DNA from: Oscillospiraceae bacterium
GTDB lineage: Bacteria > Bacillota > Clostridia > Oscillospirales > Ruminococcaceae
Direction of reading: 5' to 3'
DNA: 64,000 nt
Assembly (NCBI GenBank): GCA_021202155.1
Contig: JAJQDP010000053.1
Coordinates: 62,001-126,000, forward strand
The notes beneath the pieces are model-generated. The model saw nothing but the letters and a program-made list of their open reading frames with translations. It had not been told where the DNA came from and searched no databases. The position numbers and the translations under genes are program-made. Shown piece after piece: positions 5,153 through 21,920 of the stretch (within the stretch, counting starts at the first letter, position 1; each line of letters starts with the position of its first letter).

Positions 5153-5754
5153 ACTGTTTCCTTTCTTATCAGACCCGATTTGATTTTAAGAAATACCCAT
5201 TTCGTTGCCCCGATGATGCCTTTGGTTATCCACAGGCAAATCAAGAAGCCGAGAATAGTTACGCCCACAAAGGCGATTCCCACGCCGAGCATGGCGATTC
5301 CGGAGACCACTTTTCCCATTGCCGAGAAGACGAAGAGCGAGAATATTCCGCTGACTGCGACCACTGCGAACGAGAAATCCACCGCCCAGACGGCGACAAT
5401 CACGCTCCAGATTGATACATATACGGAGATTACTGCCGCAAAAACTGCCACAAGAAGCGAAATCCAAAGTGGAGAGCCGAGAATTATCAAAAGGATTTCC
5501 CCGACGCGAAGTGCCCGGTTGCGCTTCACCTTTTCCCTGACGATAGCCGTCAGCGGAACTTCCGAGAGAATCTGAGAGACGATTTCGTCAACCGTGCCGA
5601 GCTCCGCAACTGCCTGCTCTTCAGAAAGCCCCTCCTCAATCCGGTCGTCAATCATCTCGCTGTAGAAGCTCAAACGCTCGTTCGCATCGACCTGAGGAAT
5701 CCCCGAAAGCCGGCGGCGCAGGTTCTCCAAAAATTCATTTTTCACCATTTTCAT
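5149..5754 (-). CDS. DUF1700-family membrane protein
   Basis: 201 aa. The N-terminal about 80 residues match the DUF1700 pattern (LRRRLSGIPQVDANERLSFY, then DRIEEGLSEEQAVAELGTVD). Three or four hydrophobic segments follow from about residue 85. The first ATG overlaps the end of the PadR gene by 20 bases, and an ATG two codons later (5748) is also possible. In such operons DUF1700 proteins pair with PadR and DUF4097 proteins; the molecular function is not established. Confidence 0.85.
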   Translation of the reverse strand: MKMVKNEFLENLRRRLSGIPQVDANERLSFYSEMIDDRIEEGLSEEQAVAELGTVDEIVSQILSEVPLTAIVREKVKRNRALRVGEILLIILGSPLWISLLVAVFAAVISVYVSIWSVIVAVWAVDFSFAVVAVSGIFSLFVFSAMGKVVSGIAMLGVGIAFVGVTILGFLICLWITKGIIGATKWVFLKIKSGLIRKETV

Positions 5755-6061
5755 TATCCTCCTTGGTTATAAATCGGTAGATTGCGAAAATTTCTCCCCA
5801 CTCGACTTTGAACTCCTCGATGCGTTTAAGCCCCGCTTCGGTGATGTGGTAGTACTTGCGGAGCCTGCCGTCGTGCTCGACGTTCCTGACCGTCAGCATT
5901 CCCGCCGACTCAAGCCGCTTGAGAATGGTGTAGAGAGTGGACTCGGACAGCCTGATGTACGGCGTGAGGTCCTTGATAATTTTGTAACCATAGGAATCCT
6001 CGCCCTTGATAGCCGCCAGCACGCAGACGTCTAAAAGCCCTCGTTTTAACTGTGTGTCCAT
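5735..6061 (-). CDS. PadR-family transcriptional regulator
   Basis: 108 aa, the normal length of the short PadR subfamily. The winged-helix signature is present: KRGLLDVCVLAAIKGEDSYG, then the recognition-helix region LSESTLYTILKRLESAGML and the wing GRLRKYYHITEAG. GGAGGTGCTCCT precedes the ATG at 6061. It heads the operon with the two envelope proteins and most likely represses it. Confidence 0.94.
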   Translation of the reverse strand: MDTQLKRGLLDVCVLAAIKGEDSYGYKIIKDLTPYIRLSESTLYTILKRLESAGMLTVRNVEHDGRLRKYYHITEAGLKRIEEFKVEWGEIFAIYRFITKEDNENGEK

Positions 6062-6291
6062 AGGAGCACCTCCTTTTGAATACCTCCTGTTATGCTATAC
6101 ATCATATTACGAAGTATTGAAGTTGTCAAGAGGGAAAATGAAAAAACGGCAAAAATTTTTTCCGCCGATGGGTTCTGTGCAGGGTGCGTGTTAAGAGAAG
6201 TGTTAGAAACTTTACCGTGTTAAAAAAATCAAAAGTAAAAGAATCCCCCGACTGCCTTCAATCAAGAAAGCAATCGGGGATTCTTCATCAC
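6062..6291. other. convergent-free spacer with terminator between PadR operon and iclR-type gene
   Basis: Holds the promoter of the PadR operon, not clearly resolved (a possible -10 lies near 6110). At 6236-6288 there is a hairpin with 12-bp arms: GAATCCCCCGA pairs with TCGGGGATTC across a loop of about 22 nt. No gene is seen. Confidence 0.5.
6236..6288 (-). terminator. terminator of the IclR-family gene
   Basis: Long perfect arms AAGAATCCCCCGA and TCGGGGATTCTT lie immediately after the stop codon of the IclR gene. Confidence 0.7.
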
Positions 6292-14115: not shown

Positions 14116-14575
14116 ATGACAGAGGAAAATGCTATTGAAAGCGAAGGGCTTGTCGCAAATCCGCTCGGGGCGGAACCGATAAGAAAGCTTATCTGGAGGT
14201 TTGCGATTCCTGCGACAGTAGCTCTTGTCGTAAACGCATTATATAACATCGTCGACCAGATTTTTATCGGGCAAACTGTCGGATACCTCGGCAATGCCGC
14301 CACAAACGTTGTCAATCCGCTTATGGTAATCATGCTCGCCGTCGCAATCCTTTGGGGAGACGGCTGTGCATCCTATACGAGCCTTCAGCAAGGAAGAGGC
14401 AACCGTGAGAATGCCTCCCGTGGCGTCTGCAATGCCTGCCTGATGTCAGTCATCTGTGGACTTATCTTCATGGTGATTTCGCTTATCTTCATGAAACCGC
14501 TCTGCCTCTTGTTCGGAGCATCGGAAAATTCACTTCCGTATGCCATGCAGTATGGCTATATAATAGTCTTAGGCT
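14116..14575 (+). pseudogene. second MATE efflux transporter, N-terminal remnant
   Basis: GGAGG precedes the ATG. The first about 153 codons are MATE-like (GAEPIRKLIWRFAIPATVALVV, IFIGQTVGYLGNAATNVVNP, GDGCASYTSLQQGRG). Near 14575 the frame runs into the antisense of the methyltransferase gene, so about two thirds of the pump is lost. It sits behind the MerR-type promoter, as drug-inducible MATE genes do. Confidence 0.85.
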
Positions 14576-14598
14576 TGCTCCATCTTTCTCGTAACTTC

Positions 14599-15474
14599 TT
14601 ATTTTGTTCCTTGTATCACCATTATTACGGAAACATTGGTGTCCCATTGTTTCTCTCCACGGTTATACTGTTCAATTCTTGTATCGTACTTCATGTTGGC
14701 GAGCCGCTTCATTTCAGCAACTTCCCGGGCGTTAAAATGTTCCGGCATTGTCCCAAATACAGAGTCTATTCTATCCAAAGTGGAATAGCGTTCTGCATTT
14801 ATCATATTGCAGGCAAGCTGGGAACTGATCCTGGGGTTATCAGGAGTCAAATCAATCGTTGCATACCCTGTTCTTATATTTCGGAAGCCATACTTTTCCA
14901 TAGCTATCGGCATTTCCGCTTCGTTCATTGGGTACTTGCAAACGGAATATGTTTCAAACGATGTATCATATTCTCTAGCCTTTTCCCAAAATGCCTGTTC
15001 AAAATCATTGAGTTCCTTTACACAAGCAGGAGTTATGTTGATACCCCTCCGTGAGGATAACACAAGACATTTTCCTCCCGGTTTCAATACTCGAAGCTGT
15101 TCCCCATAAAACCCGGAAGGCTCTATGTGCTCTGCTACCGTATTTGAAATGGTCACATCAAAAGTATCATCATCAAAGGGGAGCTGGGTGGCATCTCCTT
15201 CCATGAAAGATATGCCGTCTTCGTGTTCTGATGCAAACCGGATAAATTCGCTATCTCTGTCAACAGCGGTAATTTCAGCATTGGGATACCAGCGATGAAT
15301 CGCTCCTGCTAAAGCTCCGGGACCACAGCCGATTTCCATGACTTTCAAAGTGCGGCTTGTGTCCAGATCAAAAAGCTGTCTGTACTGTTGCTCAAACAGA
15401 TCATCAAATCGTAATTTGCGGGAGTAGTATAATGTATTAGTACCTTGAACATACTTTGACCAAATAACATTCAT
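14599..15474 (-). CDS. class I SAM-dependent methyltransferase
   Basis: 291 aa from the ATG at 15474, chosen because AAAGGAAT lies just upstream; an earlier in-frame ATG at 15534 lacks a ribosome site. Motif I is VMEIGCGPGALAGAI, followed by the acidic AEITAVDRDSEF and the post-motif DATQLPFDDDTFDVTISNTV, the UbiE/BioC-like type. The acceptor is unknown. The gene is intact but sits between a MATE stump and a transposase stump, which suggests it arrived with the mobile DNA. Confidence 0.85.
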   Translation of the reverse strand: MNVIWSKYVQGTNTLYYSRKLRFDDLFEQQYRQLFDLDTSRTLKVMEIGCGPGALAGAIHRWYPNAEITAVDRDSEFIRFASEHEDGISFMEGDATQLPFDDDTFDVTISNTVAEHIEPSGFYGEQLRVLKPGGKCLVLSSRRGINITPACVKELNDFEQAFWEKAREYDTSFETYSVCKYPMNEAEMPIAMEKYGFRNIRTGYATIDLTPDNPRISSQLACNMINAERYSTLDRIDSVFGTMPEHFNAREVAEMKRLANMKYDTRIEQYNRGEKQWDTNVSVIMVIQGTK

Positions 15475-15643
15475 ATCAAAATTCCTTTCTTTTTTATACA
15501 AACTTAGGCGTTTGCGAAACGTCAGAACCCGCATATTTACGGGATTCTTTTTACTACAAAATAAAACATCTCCTCAATGTTTTATGGTAAAATAGAGTCG
15601 CCAAAAACTATCAACCAACCCACCAAAAAAGAGATGTGTTTAC
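15475..15643. other. spacer at the edge of a transposase remnant
   Basis: No gene. Probably contains the left end of the insertion sequence and the methyltransferase promoter. I cannot define the terminal inverted repeat because the other end is missing. Confidence 0.4.
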
Positions 15644-16045
15644 ATGATACCATATAATCAGCTCTCGTTGGGAGATATTTTTGAAGATTGTCGAAATATT
15701 TTCGATTCCGACAAGCCCCAGTTCCTGTCTCTTCTTGAAAACAATATTGACCTTGATGAAATTATCCCGGCTTCTTTTTTCCTTCATTACTATGCTTCCA
15801 CAGGCAGAAACCGTAAATACCCGCTTAAAGCCATGCTTTGGGCTTTGATTATACAGTGCCTCTTCTCCATCCCCACAGATTCCCTTCTGCTTGTTTTCCT
15901 TCATTACTCCAGACATCTGCGTGAATTCTGTGGTTTTACCAAAGTCCCCGATGCTTCTAAAATCACCCGCTTTAAACAAGACTTCCTCGATGACATAAAG
16001 CTTGTCTTTGACAGGCTTGTGGATATTACCGAACCCATCTGCATG
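15644..16045 (+). pseudogene. DDE transposase, N-terminal remnant (DUF772-type)
   Basis: Begins MIPYNQLSLGDIFEDCRNIF and contains a DUF772-like segment around GRNRKYPLKAMLWALIIQCL and REFCGFTKVPDASKITRFKQ. Full transposases of this IS1182/IS5-like type have 400-500 residues with a DDE core; here the frame ends after about 135 useful codons, where it meets the antisense of a MerR gene. It cannot be active. Confidence 0.75.
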
Positions 16046-16049
16046 GACA

Positions 16050-16134
16050 TCCCTAACTTCTCATAGTAAAGAAGTGAGTTGATATTCACTCCCCGAAGCC
16101 TTGCAAACTCGCTGATAGTAAGGTAATCCTTCAT
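16050..16134 (-). pseudogene. MerR-family regulator, DNA-binding stump
   Basis: From the ATG at 16134, MKDYLTISEFARLRGVNINS and LLYYEKLG form the first 28 residues of a MerR helix-turn-helix and wing (normally YYEKIGL). Beyond about 16050 the frame reads through antisense transposase sequence. AGGAGGC precedes the ATG. Confidence 0.75.
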
Positions 16135-16149
16135 AAGTCTGCCTCCTCA

Positions 16150-16186
16150 CTCTGTTATTATAACGGAGTTTTATCCCGGATGTCAA
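16150..16186 (-). promoter_or_regulatory. promoter and operator of the MerR stump
   Basis: Minus strand: TTGACA (16186-16181), an 18-bp spacer and TATAAT (16162-16157). The -10 is embedded in CTCTGTTATTATAACGGAG (16150-16168), which differs by a few bases from the palindrome at 14056-14074. The shared operator suggests this MerR protein once controlled the MATE gene. Confidence 0.65.
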
Positions 16187-16196
16187 GCCACCAACA

Positions 16197-16487
16197 CTCA
16201 TGTCAGCAACCGTACATATGGACGAGAAGACTCCGCATATGCACTTATGCTTCGCGCCGCTGACGGAGGATAACAGGCTCAGCGCAAAAGAAATTGTAGG
16301 CAATAAGAAGAAGCTCACAGAATGGCAGGACAGGTTCTGGGAGTATATGGTCAGGAAATATCCCGACTTTGAGCGTGGAGAGAGTGCATCATTAACCGGC
16401 AGAGACCACATTCCGCCAAGGATGTTCAAGCAGATGACACAGTTGACCGCTCAGAAAGAGAATGCTGTCGGACAAGATGTCGTTTGA
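16197..16487 (+). pseudogene. MobV/Pre-type plasmid relaxase fragment
   Basis: The frame reads SATVHMDEKTPHMHLCFAPL, the His-rich metal-binding motif of Mob/Pre relaxases, then LSAKEIVGNKKKLTEWQDRF. Both the N-terminal part and everything after about residue 95 are missing. It is evidence of a past plasmid or integrative element. Confidence 0.82.
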
Positions 16488-16581: not shown

Positions 16582-16705
16582 GCCTTCGAGCAAAAAGGGT
16601 TCCCGCAAAGCGTAGCTTTGTGGGAAAAGGAGGAGCGACGGAATGAGTGAGAGGCGAAATTTAAAAAATTTCGTCGCGAACGATATGAAGTCCGCGACGA
16701 CGTGG

Positions 16706-16781
16706 TGGTGGAGCATACGGGATTCGAACCCGTGACCTCCACACTGCCAGTGTGGCGCGCTCCCAACTGCGCTAATACCCC
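16706..16781 (-). tRNA. tRNA-Ala (anticodon GGC)
   Basis: Acceptor GGGGTAT pairs with ATGCTCC (with G-T wobbles), the D-arm is GCGC/GCGC, and the anticodon stem CCACA/TGTGG holds loop CTGGCAG (anticodon GGC). The T-arm is ACGGG TTCGAAT CCCGT and the CCA end is encoded. Length is 76 nt. The Mob and IS stumps end just beyond this gene; tRNA genes are common integration points. Confidence 0.96.
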
Positions 16782-16855
16782 AGTACTTCGGATATAATAG
16801 CACATCCAGGCGAAAAAATCAAGGGGTTTTTGAGAGAAATTTGCGATCGACGATT

Positions 16856-18202
16856 TTATTTCTTCATTTCCATCTCGTAAGTATAAAGCATTGAGTCTTT
16901 AAGTTTTTGAAGTTTATCATCATAGACCACCTGCGGGCAATAGTCGAAGTCATCCGGGCAAGCGACCAACTTCACGCAATCGGCATACATAGGACACCTC
17001 CTGCATATCTCTCCGATTTCCGGTCGCTTCTTCCAATAGTCGATAACGTCCTGATTTGTGATGCCCCCGTAAATAGTTCCGCACTTATCCGTGATACCAA
17101 CATGCTCACACTTATGAAGTTCCCCTGTCGGTGTAACAACAACTGCTGAATCGTTATCCGCCATACAATGATTCGTTTTTATTCTTTTGTCTATCTTACC
17201 ACAATGAGACAATCCCTTTTTGGTGAGATAAGCATTCAACTTACTGTTTTCGGAACAAGTTCTGTCAAACGACTCGCTATACTTTTCACCATATAAGTAG
17301 TGCGAATATACTCCAAGCTTCTCATACGATGAAAATCTGTCCGCTAAAAGCTCACTGAGTTTATACAGATCTTCGGCATTATCCAGGTCGAGATTCAATC
17401 TGATACTAACTCTTATTCCCGCTTTCAGTAGCCTCTCAATATTGTCAAGTACCCGCTGAAATGCACTGCCTTCGGGATTAACGTATGCCTTGCGCTCGTT
17501 ATATACTTCCTCTGTACCATCAAGTGTTATCTGAACTTTCTTCAAGTTCCAGTTTTCCACTGCCTTTTTGACCACATTATCTGTCGCCAAGTAACCGTTA
17601 GAAATCATACTTGACTCAAACTCAATCCCAGCTTTTCGCAGTTCGCTTGTAATAATGTCAATAACAGAAATATTGAATAACGGCTCGCCGCCAAACCAGT
17701 GCAAACCAACTTTTTTGCCAGCATTCTTCTTGATGTATTCCGCAACATCAAGCGCAGTCTGCTTGCTCATACTGACTCGTTCGATACCCTTTTCGTAGCA
17801 ATAGAAACACCGGGCATTGCAATCGGTAGTTGTTAAGATAGTATAGCTGTTTATGCCCTCTTTAGTATCAAAACATGTTACAACATCTCTGACCTCATTG
17901 ATAAGCTTCAGGTCGTCATGCTCTGTAGACACCAAGAACCAGTTCTTCACAAGATAGTCGAAGAGCTCACTATCCCTGATGCTATCAATATCTGATTCTT
18001 GCAAATCAGAAACACAAAGAAACTCACTCTCACCCTTATCGATGAGAATAAGCTCCTTTGTAAGATTGTTCAGTAACAGAATACCGCAATCCGCTGTAGT
18101 AGCAACACACCATGAAGCAAGGCTCACATTGTCTCCATGAGTAATACACTGTTCTCCAAGTGCTTTGGAAATAGTTATATGTGCTTTACTTATTTCTTCC
18201 AT
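16856..18202 (-). CDS. radical SAM/SPASM peptide maturase
   Basis: 448 aa. The radical SAM cluster motif C128-x3-C132-x2-C135 lies in TTTDCNARCFYCYEKG, and GGEP is at 171-174. The C-terminal SPASM region has repeated Cys (HKCEHVG, CRRCPMYADC, VACPDDFDYC) for auxiliary iron-sulfur clusters. The first about 110 residues form a separate domain that could bind the precursor leader. The ATG is three bases after the stop of a 49-aa Cys-rich peptide gene, so the two are coupled. Such enzymes install thioether or carbon crosslinks in RiPP precursors. The family cannot be fixed by eye (ranthipeptide, sactipeptide or other). Base composition is more AT-rich than its neighbours. Confidence 0.9.
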   Translation of the reverse strand: MEEISKAHITISKALGEQCITHGDNVSLASWCVATTADCGILLLNNLTKELILIDKGESEFLCVSDLQESDIDSIRDSELFDYLVKNWFLVSTEHDDLKLINEVRDVVTCFDTKEGINSYTILTTTDCNARCFYCYEKGIERVSMSKQTALDVAEYIKKNAGKKVGLHWFGGEPLFNISVIDIITSELRKAGIEFESSMISNGYLATDNVVKKAVENWNLKKVQITLDGTEEVYNERKAYVNPEGSAFQRVLDNIERLLKAGIRVSIRLNLDLDNAEDLYKLSELLADRFSSYEKLGVYSHYLYGEKYSESFDRTCSENSKLNAYLTKKGLSHCGKIDKRIKTNHCMADNDSAVVVTPTGELHKCEHVGITDKCGTIYGGITNQDVIDYWKKRPEIGEICRRCPMYADCVKLVACPDDFDYCPQVVYDDKLQKLKDSMLYTYEMEMKK

Positions 18203-18205
18203 TTT

Positions 18206-18355
18206 TTAGCTAATAGGAATATCTTCGTAATCCACATAGTTACATGTTGCATCGACACATGTATACTGAGGACAAGTGCTACTAATAGCCAATACGTACA
18301 TCTCCTGTTCCCTAAAAGCAATCACGTTCATCTCATGCTTCTCAAACATATCCAT
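18206..18355 (-). CDS. candidate RiPP precursor peptide with three TCxxx repeats
   Basis: 49 codons, found by direct translation. The leader starts MDMFEKHEMNVIAFREQEMY and the core is STCPQYTCVDATCNYVDYED followed by IPIS. Cys28, Cys33 and Cys38 are evenly spaced, each preceded by Thr, as three TCxxx pentapeptides, and Cys38-x3-Asp42 resembles the CX3D spacing of ranthipeptides. GGAGG lies 9 bases before the ATG. The stop is three bases before the radical SAM gene. Size, Cys pattern, ribosome site and position all fit a RiPP precursor; the product is unproven. Confidence 0.8.
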   Translation of the reverse strand: MDMFEKHEMNVIAFREQEMYVLAISSTCPQYTCVDATCNYVDYEDIPIS

Positions 18356-18409
18356 ATCAAAATACCTCCATTTTTCTTATGCAAGGCTTGTGCCTTCCGC
18401 ATTTTCAAT

Positions 18410-18694
18410 TTAATTCTGCTCAGCTTGTTCCTTTTTCATCCTGCGGCGTTTTTCCTGGATGGATTTTACCGAACGCTGGATCTGGGCGGACAGTTCGCTG
18501 TCGGGCATTGTGTGCTCCATGACGAGCTTGCACTCTTCCTCTGTCCACGCGTGGCGGGCGTAAATGTACGATGTTTTGTCGTAGTATCGCTTCCGGCAAG
18601 CGCGCTTCTTTTCAACCGACCTTCCCGTCCTCGGTCTGCCTCGACCTGGCATAAGTCTCATCCCTTCGCTGTCGCTGAGAACCATATAGCTCAA
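18410..18694 (-). CDS. small SANT/Myb-like DNA-binding protein with AT-hook-like motif
   Basis: Up to 94 aa. Basic N-terminal part with GRGRPR, an AT-hook-like motif, then a SANT/Myb-like helix set (WTEEECKLVMEH, LSAQIQRSVKSIQEKRRRMK). The longest frame uses TTG at 18694. ATG codons at 18685, 18661 and 18652 are alternatives, and the last has GAAGGG nine bases ahead and would start MPGRGRPR. It lies 54 bases upstream of the precursor gene in the same direction and may regulate the RiPP locus. The link is by context only. Confidence 0.65.
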   Translation of the reverse strand: MSYMVLSDSEGMRLMPGRGRPRTGRSVEKKRACRKRYYDKTSYIYARHAWTEEECKLVMEHTMPDSELSAQIQRSVKSIQEKRRRMKKEQAEQN

Positions 18695-18758
18695 TATCTG
18701 AGAAATTGGGACATTTGGCTATAAAATTCTCAATAAAAGAATCAAATCTGATAACCCT

Positions 18759-18784
18759 ATTATACCCCCCGCAAAATTTGTCAA
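18759..18784 (-). promoter_or_regulatory. candidate promoter of the RiPP locus with a short 14-bp spacer
   Basis: Minus strand TTGACA (18784-18779) and TATAAT (18764-18759) both match consensus but lie only 14 bp apart, with a GGGGGG run in the spacer. Such spacing should be weak without help from a regulator, or may reflect a changed G tract. Confidence 0.5.
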
Positions 18785-18880
18785 TAGTAAGTTTTTAGCT
18801 TTCAGAGGCGAGAAATTTCTGAGAAATTCTTAATATTCTGATACGATTTTGAGGCAAAAATCTCGGGAAGTGAGACATGA

Positions 18881-18912
18881 AAAACAGGGCTGATTTCTCA
18901 GTCCTGCTTTGT
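18881..18912 (-). terminator. terminator downstream of the macrodomain/sirtuin remnant
   Basis: CAGG-GCTGA and TCAGT-CCTG arms around TTTC, with A and T runs on either side. The region 18785-18880 contains nothing else I can recognise. Confidence 0.65.
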
Positions 18913-19114
18913 TTATATCAGCTTTTTCAGCACTTTCCCGATGTCATCATCAATGCAAATCGACTGCCCTGCAATCTGCGACGGGCAGGCGGCGTCGCCG
19001 TAGTTTATGCAGGCGTAGGTCGCTTTCGGGTTCTTTAAGGTCATCTGCCAGAAGGGGCGGGCTCTCCGAAAGAAGTTCTTTTACAAGGTAGATTCTGCGG
19101 TCGGGTTGGGTCAT
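18913..19114 (-). pseudogene. remnant joining a macrodomain protein start to a SirTM-type sirtuin end
   Basis: The ATG at 19114 gives MTQPDRRIYLVKELLSE, like the start of Firmicute protein-ADP-ribose hydrolases (macrodomain). In another frame the 3' part reads TLKNPKATYACINYGDAACP and QIAGQSICIDDDIGKVLKKL, then stops, like the C-terminus of macrodomain-linked sirtuins. In many Firmicutes the two genes are adjacent, so a deletion from inside the first to near the end of the second explains this. Recognition is from memory of the families and moderately certain. Confidence 0.6.
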
Positions 19115-20506: not shown

Positions 20507-20535
20507 TTGCAATCAAAATTCCAATGTGGTACAAT
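20507..20535 (+). promoter_or_regulatory. sigma-A promoter of the MATE gene
   Basis: TTGCAA (20507-20512), a 17-bp spacer and TACAAT (20530-20535). Confidence 0.65.
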
Positions 20536-20588
20536 ACCTCTGCCCACAACTCTGTTTTAAAATATGGGTGGGCAGAAGGACAGTTTTT

Positions 20589-21920
20589 ATGGCGATACAG
20601 CTTTCGGATAGATTCAATTTCAGGCGGCTTCTCAGATTCACTTTGCCGTCCATCGTCATGATGATTTTCACGTCTATTTACGGCGTGGTCGACGGATTCT
20701 TTGTGTCGAATTTTGCGGGAAAGACTCCGTTCACGGCGATTAATCTCATCATGCCGTTTCTGATGGTTTTAGGCGCACTCGGATTTATGATGGGAACCGG
20801 CGGTAGCGCGATAATTGCGAAGACGATGGGCGAGGGCAACAAGGAAAAGGCAAACAGCCTGTTTTCGCTGTTCATCTACATATCAGTTCTTGCGGGAATT
20901 GTCGTTGCGGCTATTGGAATTGCTGTCCTGCGACCGGTTGCGGCATTTCTCGGTGCAGAGGGCGAAATCCTTGAAGACTGCGTCATCTACGGAAGAATAA
21001 TACTTATGGCACTTCCGGCGTTCATGCTCCAATACGAATTTCAGAGTTTGTTTGTGACGGCTGAAAGACCGAACTTAGGACTTGCGGTGACGGTTGCGGC
21101 AGGATTCACAAATATAATTTTAGATGCGGTTCTGGTCGGAGTCCTTTCAAAAGGACTTGTCGGCGCGGCAGTTGCGACGGCGATGAGCCAGTGCGTCGGC
21201 GGACTGATACCGATTATCTACTTCGCCCTTCCGAACAAGAGCCTTTTAAGACTCGGGAAGACGAGATTTGACGGCAGGTCACTCTTAAAAGCCTGCACCA
21301 ACGGCTCATCGGAGCTTATGAGCAACATTGCGATGTCTACCGTCTCGATGCTCTATAACTACCAGCTTTTGCAGTATGCCGGGAACGACGGAGTCGCCGC
21401 CTATGGCGTTCTTATGTACGTCAACATGATTTTCATCGCCGTGTTTATCGGATATTCTGTAGGCTCTGCTCCCATTGTGAGCTATCACTACGGTGCTGGA
21501 AATAAAGACGAACTGAAAAGCCTGCTCCGCAAAAGTGTTATTATAATTCTGTGCTTCTCGGTTTCGATGCTCATTTGCTCCGAGCTTCTTGCCAAGCCAC
21601 TTTCAACGCTGTTTGTCGGCTATGATGAGGAGCTACTTGAGCTCACTCTTGGCGGCTTCAGGATCTATTCCTTCTCGTTCCTGTTTGCGGGATTCGCGAT
21701 TTATGGCTCTTCCTTCTTCACAGCTCTCAACAACGGCGTGATTTCGGCGATAATCTCGTTCCTGAGAACTTTAGTATTCCAGGTTGCGGCGGTGCTCATC
21801 TTCCCACTCATCTGGGGCATAGACGGAATCTGGTTCTCCCTCGTCGCCGCAGAGATAATGGCAGTTGCAACGACGTCGGTTTTCATATTCGCAAAGAGAA
21901 AGAAATACGGTTATCTGTGA
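20589..21920 (+). CDS. MATE family multidrug efflux transporter
   Basis: 443 aa from the ATG at 20589 (AAGGACA upstream; the open frame extends further but starts before any ribosome site). Twelve hydrophobic segments in two repeats. Typical MATE segments are RFTLPSIVMMIFTSIYGVVD, FMMGTGGSAIIAKTMGEGNK and, in the second half, FIAVFIGYSVGSAPIVSYHY. It exports cationic drugs or metabolites in exchange for Na+ or H+. Unlike the two stumps at 13.7-14.6 kb it is intact. Confidence 0.93.
   Translation: MAIQLSDRFNFRRLLRFTLPSIVMMIFTSIYGVVDGFFVSNFAGKTPFTAINLIMPFLMVLGALGFMMGTGGSAIIAKTMGEGNKEKANSLFSLFIYISVLAGIVVAAIGIAVLRPVAAFLGAEGEILEDCVIYGRIILMALPAFMLQYEFQSLFVTAERPNLGLAVTVAAGFTNIILDAVLVGVLSKGLVGAAVATAMSQCVGGLIPIIYFALPNKSLLRLGKTRFDGRSLLKACTNGSSELMSNIAMSTVSMLYNYQLLQYAGNDGVAAYGVLMYVNMIFIAVFIGYSVGSAPIVSYHYGAGNKDELKSLLRKSVIIILCFSVSMLICSELLAKPLSTLFVGYDEELLELTLGGFRIYSFSFLFAGFAIYGSSFFTALNNGVISAIISFLRTLVFQVAAVLIFPLIWGIDGIWFSLVAAEIMAVATTSVFIFAKRKKYGYL

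Follow-up and report, generated by a model that had tools for sequence, protein, structure and literature searches.

A Cys-repeat peptide and its adjoining radical SAM/SPASM enzyme as a probable ranthipeptide-like pair within a wider leader-peptide family of an Oscillospiraceae bacterium

The window analyzed here is a 64,000-nucleotide stretch from an Oscillospiraceae bacterium (assembly GCA_021202155.1, contig JAJQDP010000053.1, positions 62,001 to 126,000), in which a gene for a 49-amino-acid (aa) peptide with regularly spaced Cys residues lies directly upstream of a gene for a radical S-adenosylmethionine (SAM)/SPASM enzyme (Table 1). A GGAGG ends 9 bases ahead of the ATG of the peptide gene, and three bases separate its stop codon (18206-18208) from the ATG of the enzyme gene (18202). 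Cys28, Cys33 and Cys38 of the peptide are each preceded by Thr and can be read as TCPQY-TCVDA-TCNYV, with Asp42 four residues past Cys38. An earlier sequence-only reading had described this layout, the three TCxxx pentapeptides with Cys38-x3-Asp42, and CxxxCxxC, GGEP and many C-terminal Cys in the enzyme; the open reading frame (ORF) coordinates, the rechecked residue positions and the motifs given below agree with it on each point. It had also taken the two genes to encode the precursor and the maturase of a ribosomally synthesized and post-translationally modified peptide (RiPP). The even Cys spacing argues little for this, since three Cys placed at random on 49 positions would be spaced equally by 5 with a chance of 0.2%, and by any step up to 10 with a chance of 2%. 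The argument is therefore carried by the paralogues. These, together with the leader profile described below and the GGAGG ahead of the start, led us to reject a chance ORF as the origin of the precursor.

Table 1. Features of the locus in the window and arrays of leader peptides found elsewhere (array positions are those of the loci named)
Feature	Position	Strand	Remarks
49-aa precursor peptide ORF	18206..18355	-	sequence MDMFEKHEMNVIAFREQEMYVLAISSTCPQYTCVDATCNYVDYEDIPIS; leader about 1-26, Cys-repeat core about 27-49
Leader region	18278..18355	-	contains FEKHEMNVIAF, a pattern common to the dispersed peptides; leader/core boundary is a guess
Core	18206..18277	-	TCPQYTCVDATCNYVDYEDIPIS; Cys28/33/38 with T32/T37/D42 at +4
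Radical SAM/SPASM peptide maturase, 448 aa	16856..18202	-	assigned by motifs, family models and alignment
94-aa small protein, weakly Myb/SANT-like	18410..18694	-	dispersed family adjoining leader peptides
tRNA-Ala (GGC)	16706..16781	-	just 3' of the maturase; unit boundary, outside the unit
Leader-peptide arrays	L072 8985-10378 (G000:C42); L122 5785-8270 (G010:C1); L121 4031-6896 (G012:C9); L123 (G000:C12)		

The maturase carries CX3CX2C at residues 128/132/135, which are Cys in 55/55 aligned homologues, and GGEP at residues 171-174. Seven more Cys, towards the C terminus (346/365/400/403/409/415/422), are kept in 52-54 of the 55 homologues, two of which are incomplete, and the last five are spaced CX2CX5CX5CX6C. 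The protein matched PF04055 with 64.6 bits. Among the best 25 of 50 NCBIfam families, the best match was TIGR04463 (137.6 bits; cut-off 525). Others were CefB NF038107 (131.2 bits over residues 41-415; cut-off 600), Clo7bot (114.3; 600), geopeptide (102.1; 400), FlmE/OhkG (96.7; 500), the PapB ranthipeptide maturase NF047865 (82.9; 340) and the RumMC sactipeptide maturase (44.0 bits, 1.2e-11; 720). Since all of these are maturase models and all were matched under cut-off, we class the protein as a SPASM peptide maturase whose subfamily has no name. Its score is higher with the ranthipeptide model than with the sactipeptide model, and among characterized enzymes the ranthipeptide maturases (PapB, CteB) come closest to it. 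The cyclophane maturase model YhhB also matched (2e-9). The best PDB match, both for the single sequence (1.9e-13) and for a 38-sequence profile (4.9e-22), was 5wgg, which is named 'Radical SAM domain protein' in the output and which we take to be the ranthipeptide maturase CteB. SkfB (6efn) matched more weakly (7e-7).

Two further pairs of the same kind support the pairing of peptide and maturase. The window's own genome (G000) encodes a second maturase (C28:40850-42169), 70% identical to the first, with a Cys-rich 50-aa ORF, MYEKHEFNILGFGEIDSYVHCLSWEQCYDSTTCTSQECQEYSFNSLFGDC, just upstream. In a congener (G012:C9), a 65% identical maturase has the Cys-rich ORF MYSIHEYSIHEMDFVYFSEKSLYVQADLSVVGCDDSSACPPYTCPETSFNSLFGDC upstream near the enzyme start, with the ORF start chosen by hand. 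The G000:C28 and G012:C9 loci share a flank that by eye encodes a lipoprotein, a response regulator, a histidine kinase and one more membrane protein, as well as a peptide ending in SFNSLFGDC, so that these two pairs are probably orthologous. The window and C28 maturase genes have evidently exchanged sequence, as their last 174 aligned bases are 91% identical (159/174; window 16864-17038) against 69% over the rest (773/1122). At E≤1e-40, copies of the maturase occurred in two of 31 genomes of the genus, namely G000 (two copies) and G012 (two copies, 65% and 48% identical). At E≤1e-60, a family-wide draw gave 7 of 396 genomes and an order-wide draw 8 of 394, the window's own genome included in both. 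A further 42 loci from GTDB contigs, mostly Bacteroidales/Prevotella and metagenome-assembled genomes of Clostridia, encode maturases that are 35-45% identical.

The leader is also kept upstream of maturases in other genera. We built a leader profile, A1, from 16 peptides of this genus, including the three maturase-linked precursors; the window peptide scored 61 bits against it, having helped to train it. The profile was applied to 48 non-training maturase loci with at least 200 bases upstream, 47 of them from other genera or records and one (L047) from G012. Of the 194 small ORFs that lie up to 600 bases upstream of these maturases, 15 matched it at ≥6 bits, spread over 15 of the 48 loci. Only 4 of 4273 control ORFs from the same DNA did so, and three of these four resemble such peptides by eye. 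Several of the other loci have a Cys-rich upstream ORF with a different leader, as judged by eye and with no control. Among related loci we also noted a 71-aa precursor candidate (L036 5607-5822), in which Cys stand partly at every fourth residue (CSTDCASDCSDDCSSIC) and which overlaps the longest reading of its maturase. Two peptides that resemble each other, rich in Cys and with Cys-x-x-Asp repeats behind a different leader, lie upstream of related Bacteroidales maturases at L028 7736-7897 and L040 7648-7821.

Searching the 31 genomes of the genus with A1 showed that the leader is not confined to maturase loci. At E≤1, we found 22, 26 and 28 matches in G000, G010 (a second congener) and G012, and 0-9 mostly weak matches in each of the other 28 genomes. 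In a family draw of 247 genomes, the window's own genome was the only one with a match at E≤1e-5; G010 and G012 had no listed match and were thus evidently not drawn. An inventory of peptides under 90 aa at ≥12 bits, taken from fetched stretches that cover part of each genome, comprised 72 peptides (24 in G000, 23 in G010 and 25 in G012), 16 of which had trained A1. Tandem arrays contain 47 of the 72, with 9 in G000:C42, 4 in G000:C12, 15 in G010:C1 and 19 in G012:C9. The array cores are variable and often acidic and Ser-rich, several end like SIKPNRSDS, and some members are kept between species. For peptides of two genomes that were each other's best match, with an identity of 55% or more, the concatenated ratios of nonsynonymous to synonymous substitution (dN/dS) were 0.25 (8 pairs), 0.18 (5) and 0.14 (6), although dS was saturated or not computable for some single pairs. 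Such ratios indicate that the leader peptides are genes under constraint. None of those submitted matched Pfam or NCBIfam. We found no description of such arrays in the literature covered, which consisted of titles and abstract beginnings and of passages of PMC9413430, PMC8498205, PMC10352776 and PMC8326336; this is not proof of absence.

Cys-rich cores were found exclusively beside the maturase. All three maturase-linked peptides have at least three Cys in the C-terminal half, compared with none of the 69 unlinked leader peptides (hypergeometric 1.7e-5, a value that is too strong owing to the kinship among the three). In that half, 62 of the 69 have no Cys, six have one and one has two; a single unlinked peptide, at G010:C48, has three Cys in its total length. 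No other single observation argues as well as this enrichment that the Cys of the neighbouring peptide are acted on by the enzyme. Together with the paralogy and the leader kept upstream in other genera, it bears out the pairing that the sequence-only reading had proposed. The peptide and enzyme are very likely a RiPP-type precursor/maturase pair, and we are equally confident that the 49-aa peptide is the substrate. The same counts led us to reject, as a general rule, a maturase that serves all leader peptides in trans. G010 also speaks against such a rule, as it has arrays yet no maturase at E≤1e-40.

The cores of the three linked peptides suggest what the enzyme may do. The residues four positions after Cys are T, T and D in the window peptide, E, T, E and S in the C28 peptide and S, T and S in the G012 peptide. 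Ser, Thr, Asp or Glu thus stands at +4 of 10/10 scorable Cys, compared with 2, 7, 3, 1 and 1 of 10 at +1, +2, +3, +5 and +6. Shuffled cores reached 10/10 at +4 in 47 of 200,000 trials, and at one or another of the offsets 1-6 in 20 of 20,000. Passages of PMC9413430 describe PapB as linking Cys to the acidic residue of Cys-X3-Asp/Glu motifs and as accepting nested and in-line arrangements, and passages of PMC8326336 describe SCIFF maturases that join Cys to Thr. Considering the 10/10 count along with these linkages, we propose in-line rings from each Cys(i) to residue i+4. The 49-aa peptide would be made and its N-terminal leader presumably recognized by the SPASM enzyme, whose 5'-deoxyadenosyl radical would join each Cys thiol to a side-chain carbon four residues on. 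The rings would be Cys28-Thr32, Cys33-Thr37 and Cys38-Asp42, three small in-line thioethers with 6 Da lost in all. Removal of the leader and export would fall to genes elsewhere in the genome. As a whole, a ranthipeptide-like precursor/maturase pair with three such rings is the likely reading, and thioether ring chemistry on Cys is similarly probable from the comparisons made.

A sactipeptide-type pair, in which the Cys thiols are joined to alpha-carbons as in ruminococcin C, is unlikely. SPASM/twitch enzymes of both kinds are related, and both RumMC and SkfB are among the matches given above, but the PapB model outscores RumMC and an acidic or hydroxylated residue stands at +4 of every scorable Cys. 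Slightly less likely still is another reaction on the partner, such as carbon-carbon links, Cys-Tyr links or oxidation, with the even Cys spacing reflecting something besides thioether rings. The superfamily makes many kinds of link, the YhhB model does match, and Cys28, Cys33 and Cys38 each have a Tyr (Tyr31 or Tyr40) two or three residues away. However, the Cys enrichment beside the maturase suggests that Cys is what the enzyme modifies, and some of the better-scoring models of characterized enzymes are thioether maturases. That the window pair is a decayed or unused duplication remnant beside the tRNA gene, with the active system at G000:C28, fits the sequence exchange with that copy but is improbable, as neither frame is interrupted, the maturase has lost none of its catalytic and SPASM Cys, and the precursor has its GGAGG and a distinct core of its own.

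Several observations weigh against a ranthipeptide-like pair with +4 rings. Because the +4 rule was noticed before it was tested and rests on three related peptides, we hold this connectivity to be tentative and rather more doubtful than the thioether chemistry itself. Some Bacteroidales precursors break the rule by eye. In the passages of PMC8326336, the acceptor Thr of CteA is at +5 or +2, and the literature covered held no documented case of a Thr acceptor at +4 for a PapB-like enzyme. The maturase reached the cut-off of no NCBIfam family among those considered. The three linked precursors are akin to one another, two of them probably being orthologous. Related maturases lacking a similar upstream ORF would have counted against the pairing in the sequence-only reading, and here the outcome was mixed: beside the 15 matching loci, 33 of the 48 had no upstream leader-profile match of at least 6 bits. 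Nor are these loci independent, as six of the 15 matches are near-identical Prevotella-type peptides. No N-terminal RiPP recognition element (RRE) was found in residues 1-110 when their profile was compared with those of four PqqD-like proteins from related clusters (probability 0.1%), and a PDB profile search for one gave just three matches, to designed repeat proteins or fusions, at E of 0.0056 or more. Finally, no transporter, protease or immunity gene adjoins the window pair, leaving it with neither a protease nor an exporter next to the genes.

The pair resembles several known systems and belongs to none of them. As in PapA/PapB (freyrasin), a SPASM maturase adjoins a Cys-repeat precursor, and Cys-X3-Asp occurs once in the window peptide (C38-D42) and Cys-X3-Glu twice in the paralogue. 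By motif, Cys-X3-Asp/Glu does not run through the whole precursor, as it covers only 1/3 Cys in the window peptide, 2/4 scorable Cys in the paralogue and 0/3 in the G012 peptide, the rest having Thr or Ser. We rejected membership of the PapB-type ranthipeptides, as the maturase scores below the NF047865 cut-off (82.9 vs 340 bits). SCIFF/CteB is likened to the pair by the closest solved structure, presumably CteB, and by its Cys-Thr links. However, similarity to 5wgg covers only the radical SAM core and, weakly, a stretch of SPASM, and SCIFF membership was rejected since SCIFF has six Cys in 45 residues and the window peptide three in 49.

The sequence-only reading held that the Cys spacing matches no family that could be named. 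A look-alike does have a name, the 'Cys-every-fifth' system CefA/CefB, which shares the Cys step of 5 with the window peptide, but the pair is not CefA/CefB. The step is not kept in the paralogue (6, 6, 5) or the congener (6, 5), the maturase, at 131 bits, stays below the cut-off of 600, and the peptides of the two systems are dissimilar. At a near-CefB locus (L128; 573.7 bits, just under the cut-off), two peptides rich in Ala, Gly and Asn and with many Cys, 124 and 122 aa long, are encoded in tandem before the maturase (5356-6117), and there is, unlike at the window locus, an ABC transporter gene. TIGR04463 was likewise rejected, as the maturase, although it matches this model best, falls below its cut-off. 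'Cys-every-fifth' was not mentioned among the best-matching literature, and searches for Clo7bot, TIGR04463 and CXXX repeat gave no match, 'Cys-rich peptide radical SAM' being the only one that did. In the prochlorosins/SyncM system, too, many precursors differ in the core but share a conserved leader. There, according to PMC9872173, one promiscuous lanthipeptide synthetase serves all, up to 79 substrates, whereas here only the Cys-rich leader peptides adjoin the maturase and most others lack core Cys.

The sequence-only reading had extended the locus to position 18694 and so included a third ORF, for the 94-aa protein, without describing it. Its resemblance to Myb/SANT proteins was noted by eye and is weakly backed (PDB Myb 0.17; PHROG regulator 0.0016), and Pfam and NCBIfam gave no match. 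A search of 16 genomes gave 11 copies of the family in G000, 9 in G010 and 3 in G011, and the remaining 13 genomes had no copy; three more were found in stretches of G012, which is outside that set. For 21 of the 23 copies, a same-strand leader-family ORF of at least 6 bits lies between 1.5 kb upstream and 0.9 kb downstream, though for six of the 21 the best adjacent peptide helped to train A1. Away from the copies, 13 of 1165 ORFs in the same DNA had such a match, all 13 in the G000:C42 and G010:C1 arrays. In five G000 copies (L071, L073, L074, L075 and L076), the order is leader peptide, Thr-rich lipoprotein of about 200 aa (by eye) and 94-aa-type gene. At G000:C51, an HprK-like gene lies between the leader peptide and the 94-aa-type gene, and cassettes with an HprK-like kinase gene in this middle place (L078 1047-2147 and L086) occur in G000 and G010.

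The lack of accessory genes beside the pair, on which the sequence-only reading had remarked, holds at the window but not as a trait of the family. HprK-like and PqqD-like genes each lie within 4 kb in 17 of 54 related maturase loci, always on the maturase strand (flanks longer than 1.5 kb on either side were available for only 29 of the 54, and three are from this genus). Neither gene was found in the window at 1e-2. The G012:C2 locus has both, PqqD (PF05402, 1.7e-11) and an HprK-like gene (ScmC model 2.1e-5 and HprK_rel_A 3.9e-4, both under cut-off), a likeness to SynChlorMet and to lasso clusters with HprK-like and PqqD genes that the window pair does not share. The name HprK-like rests on such weak model matches, and PDB gave none. 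Among the 31 genomes of the genus, close copies (E<1e-70) occurred only in G000, G010 and G012, the three array genomes, and distant copies alone in 11 others; this co-occurrence may be due to mere close kinship. Passages of PMC8498205 describe HPr kinase homologues of lasso clusters that phosphorylate a C-terminal Ser.

Upstream of the 94-aa ORF, the window encodes an NAD(P)H-binding protein and an Rrf2 regulator, and the nearest transporter gene found encodes a MatE efflux protein (20526-21920) on the opposite strand, about 2.2 kb off. Past the tRNA-Ala gene, at 14116-16487, there are a methyltransferase gene and short MatE, DUF772 transposase and Mob_Pre matches in incomplete-looking ORFs. 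A promoter scan of 16600-19000 gave 8 sites against 5.0 expected and was not used. We rejected carriage by a phage, as viral contigs contained no relatives of the maturase or the 94-aa protein by peptide patterns, and by a plasmid, as megablast gave no plasmid match, both at the sensitivity used.

In our best reading, the pair is ranthipeptide-like and of a subfamily below every named cut-off. The leader-peptide system around it is more surprising than the pair itself. As the pair consists of two genes, substrate and enzyme can be tested together directly. The three paralogous pairs offer a ready series on Thr, Ser, Glu and Asp at +4 as thioether acceptors, and the Cys-poor peptides with the same leader are natural negative controls. 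Dozens of scattered and arrayed peptides share one leader in G000 and its two close relatives, which hints at a larger, so far unstudied system of peptides, and the arrays raise the question of what use is made of dozens of conserved leader-bearing peptides with no adjacent maturase of this kind. One speculative answer, which we consider the less likely, is a lineage-restricted system with one leader type and several fates. Such a system would be modular, built on a single recognition leader, would supply signals or surface peptides and would use more than one chemistry for maturation. The acidic Ser-rich cores would then be handled by another enzyme, perhaps the HprK-like kinase phosphorylating Ser, and a few maturase-adjacent copies would have evolved Cys repeats for cross-linking.

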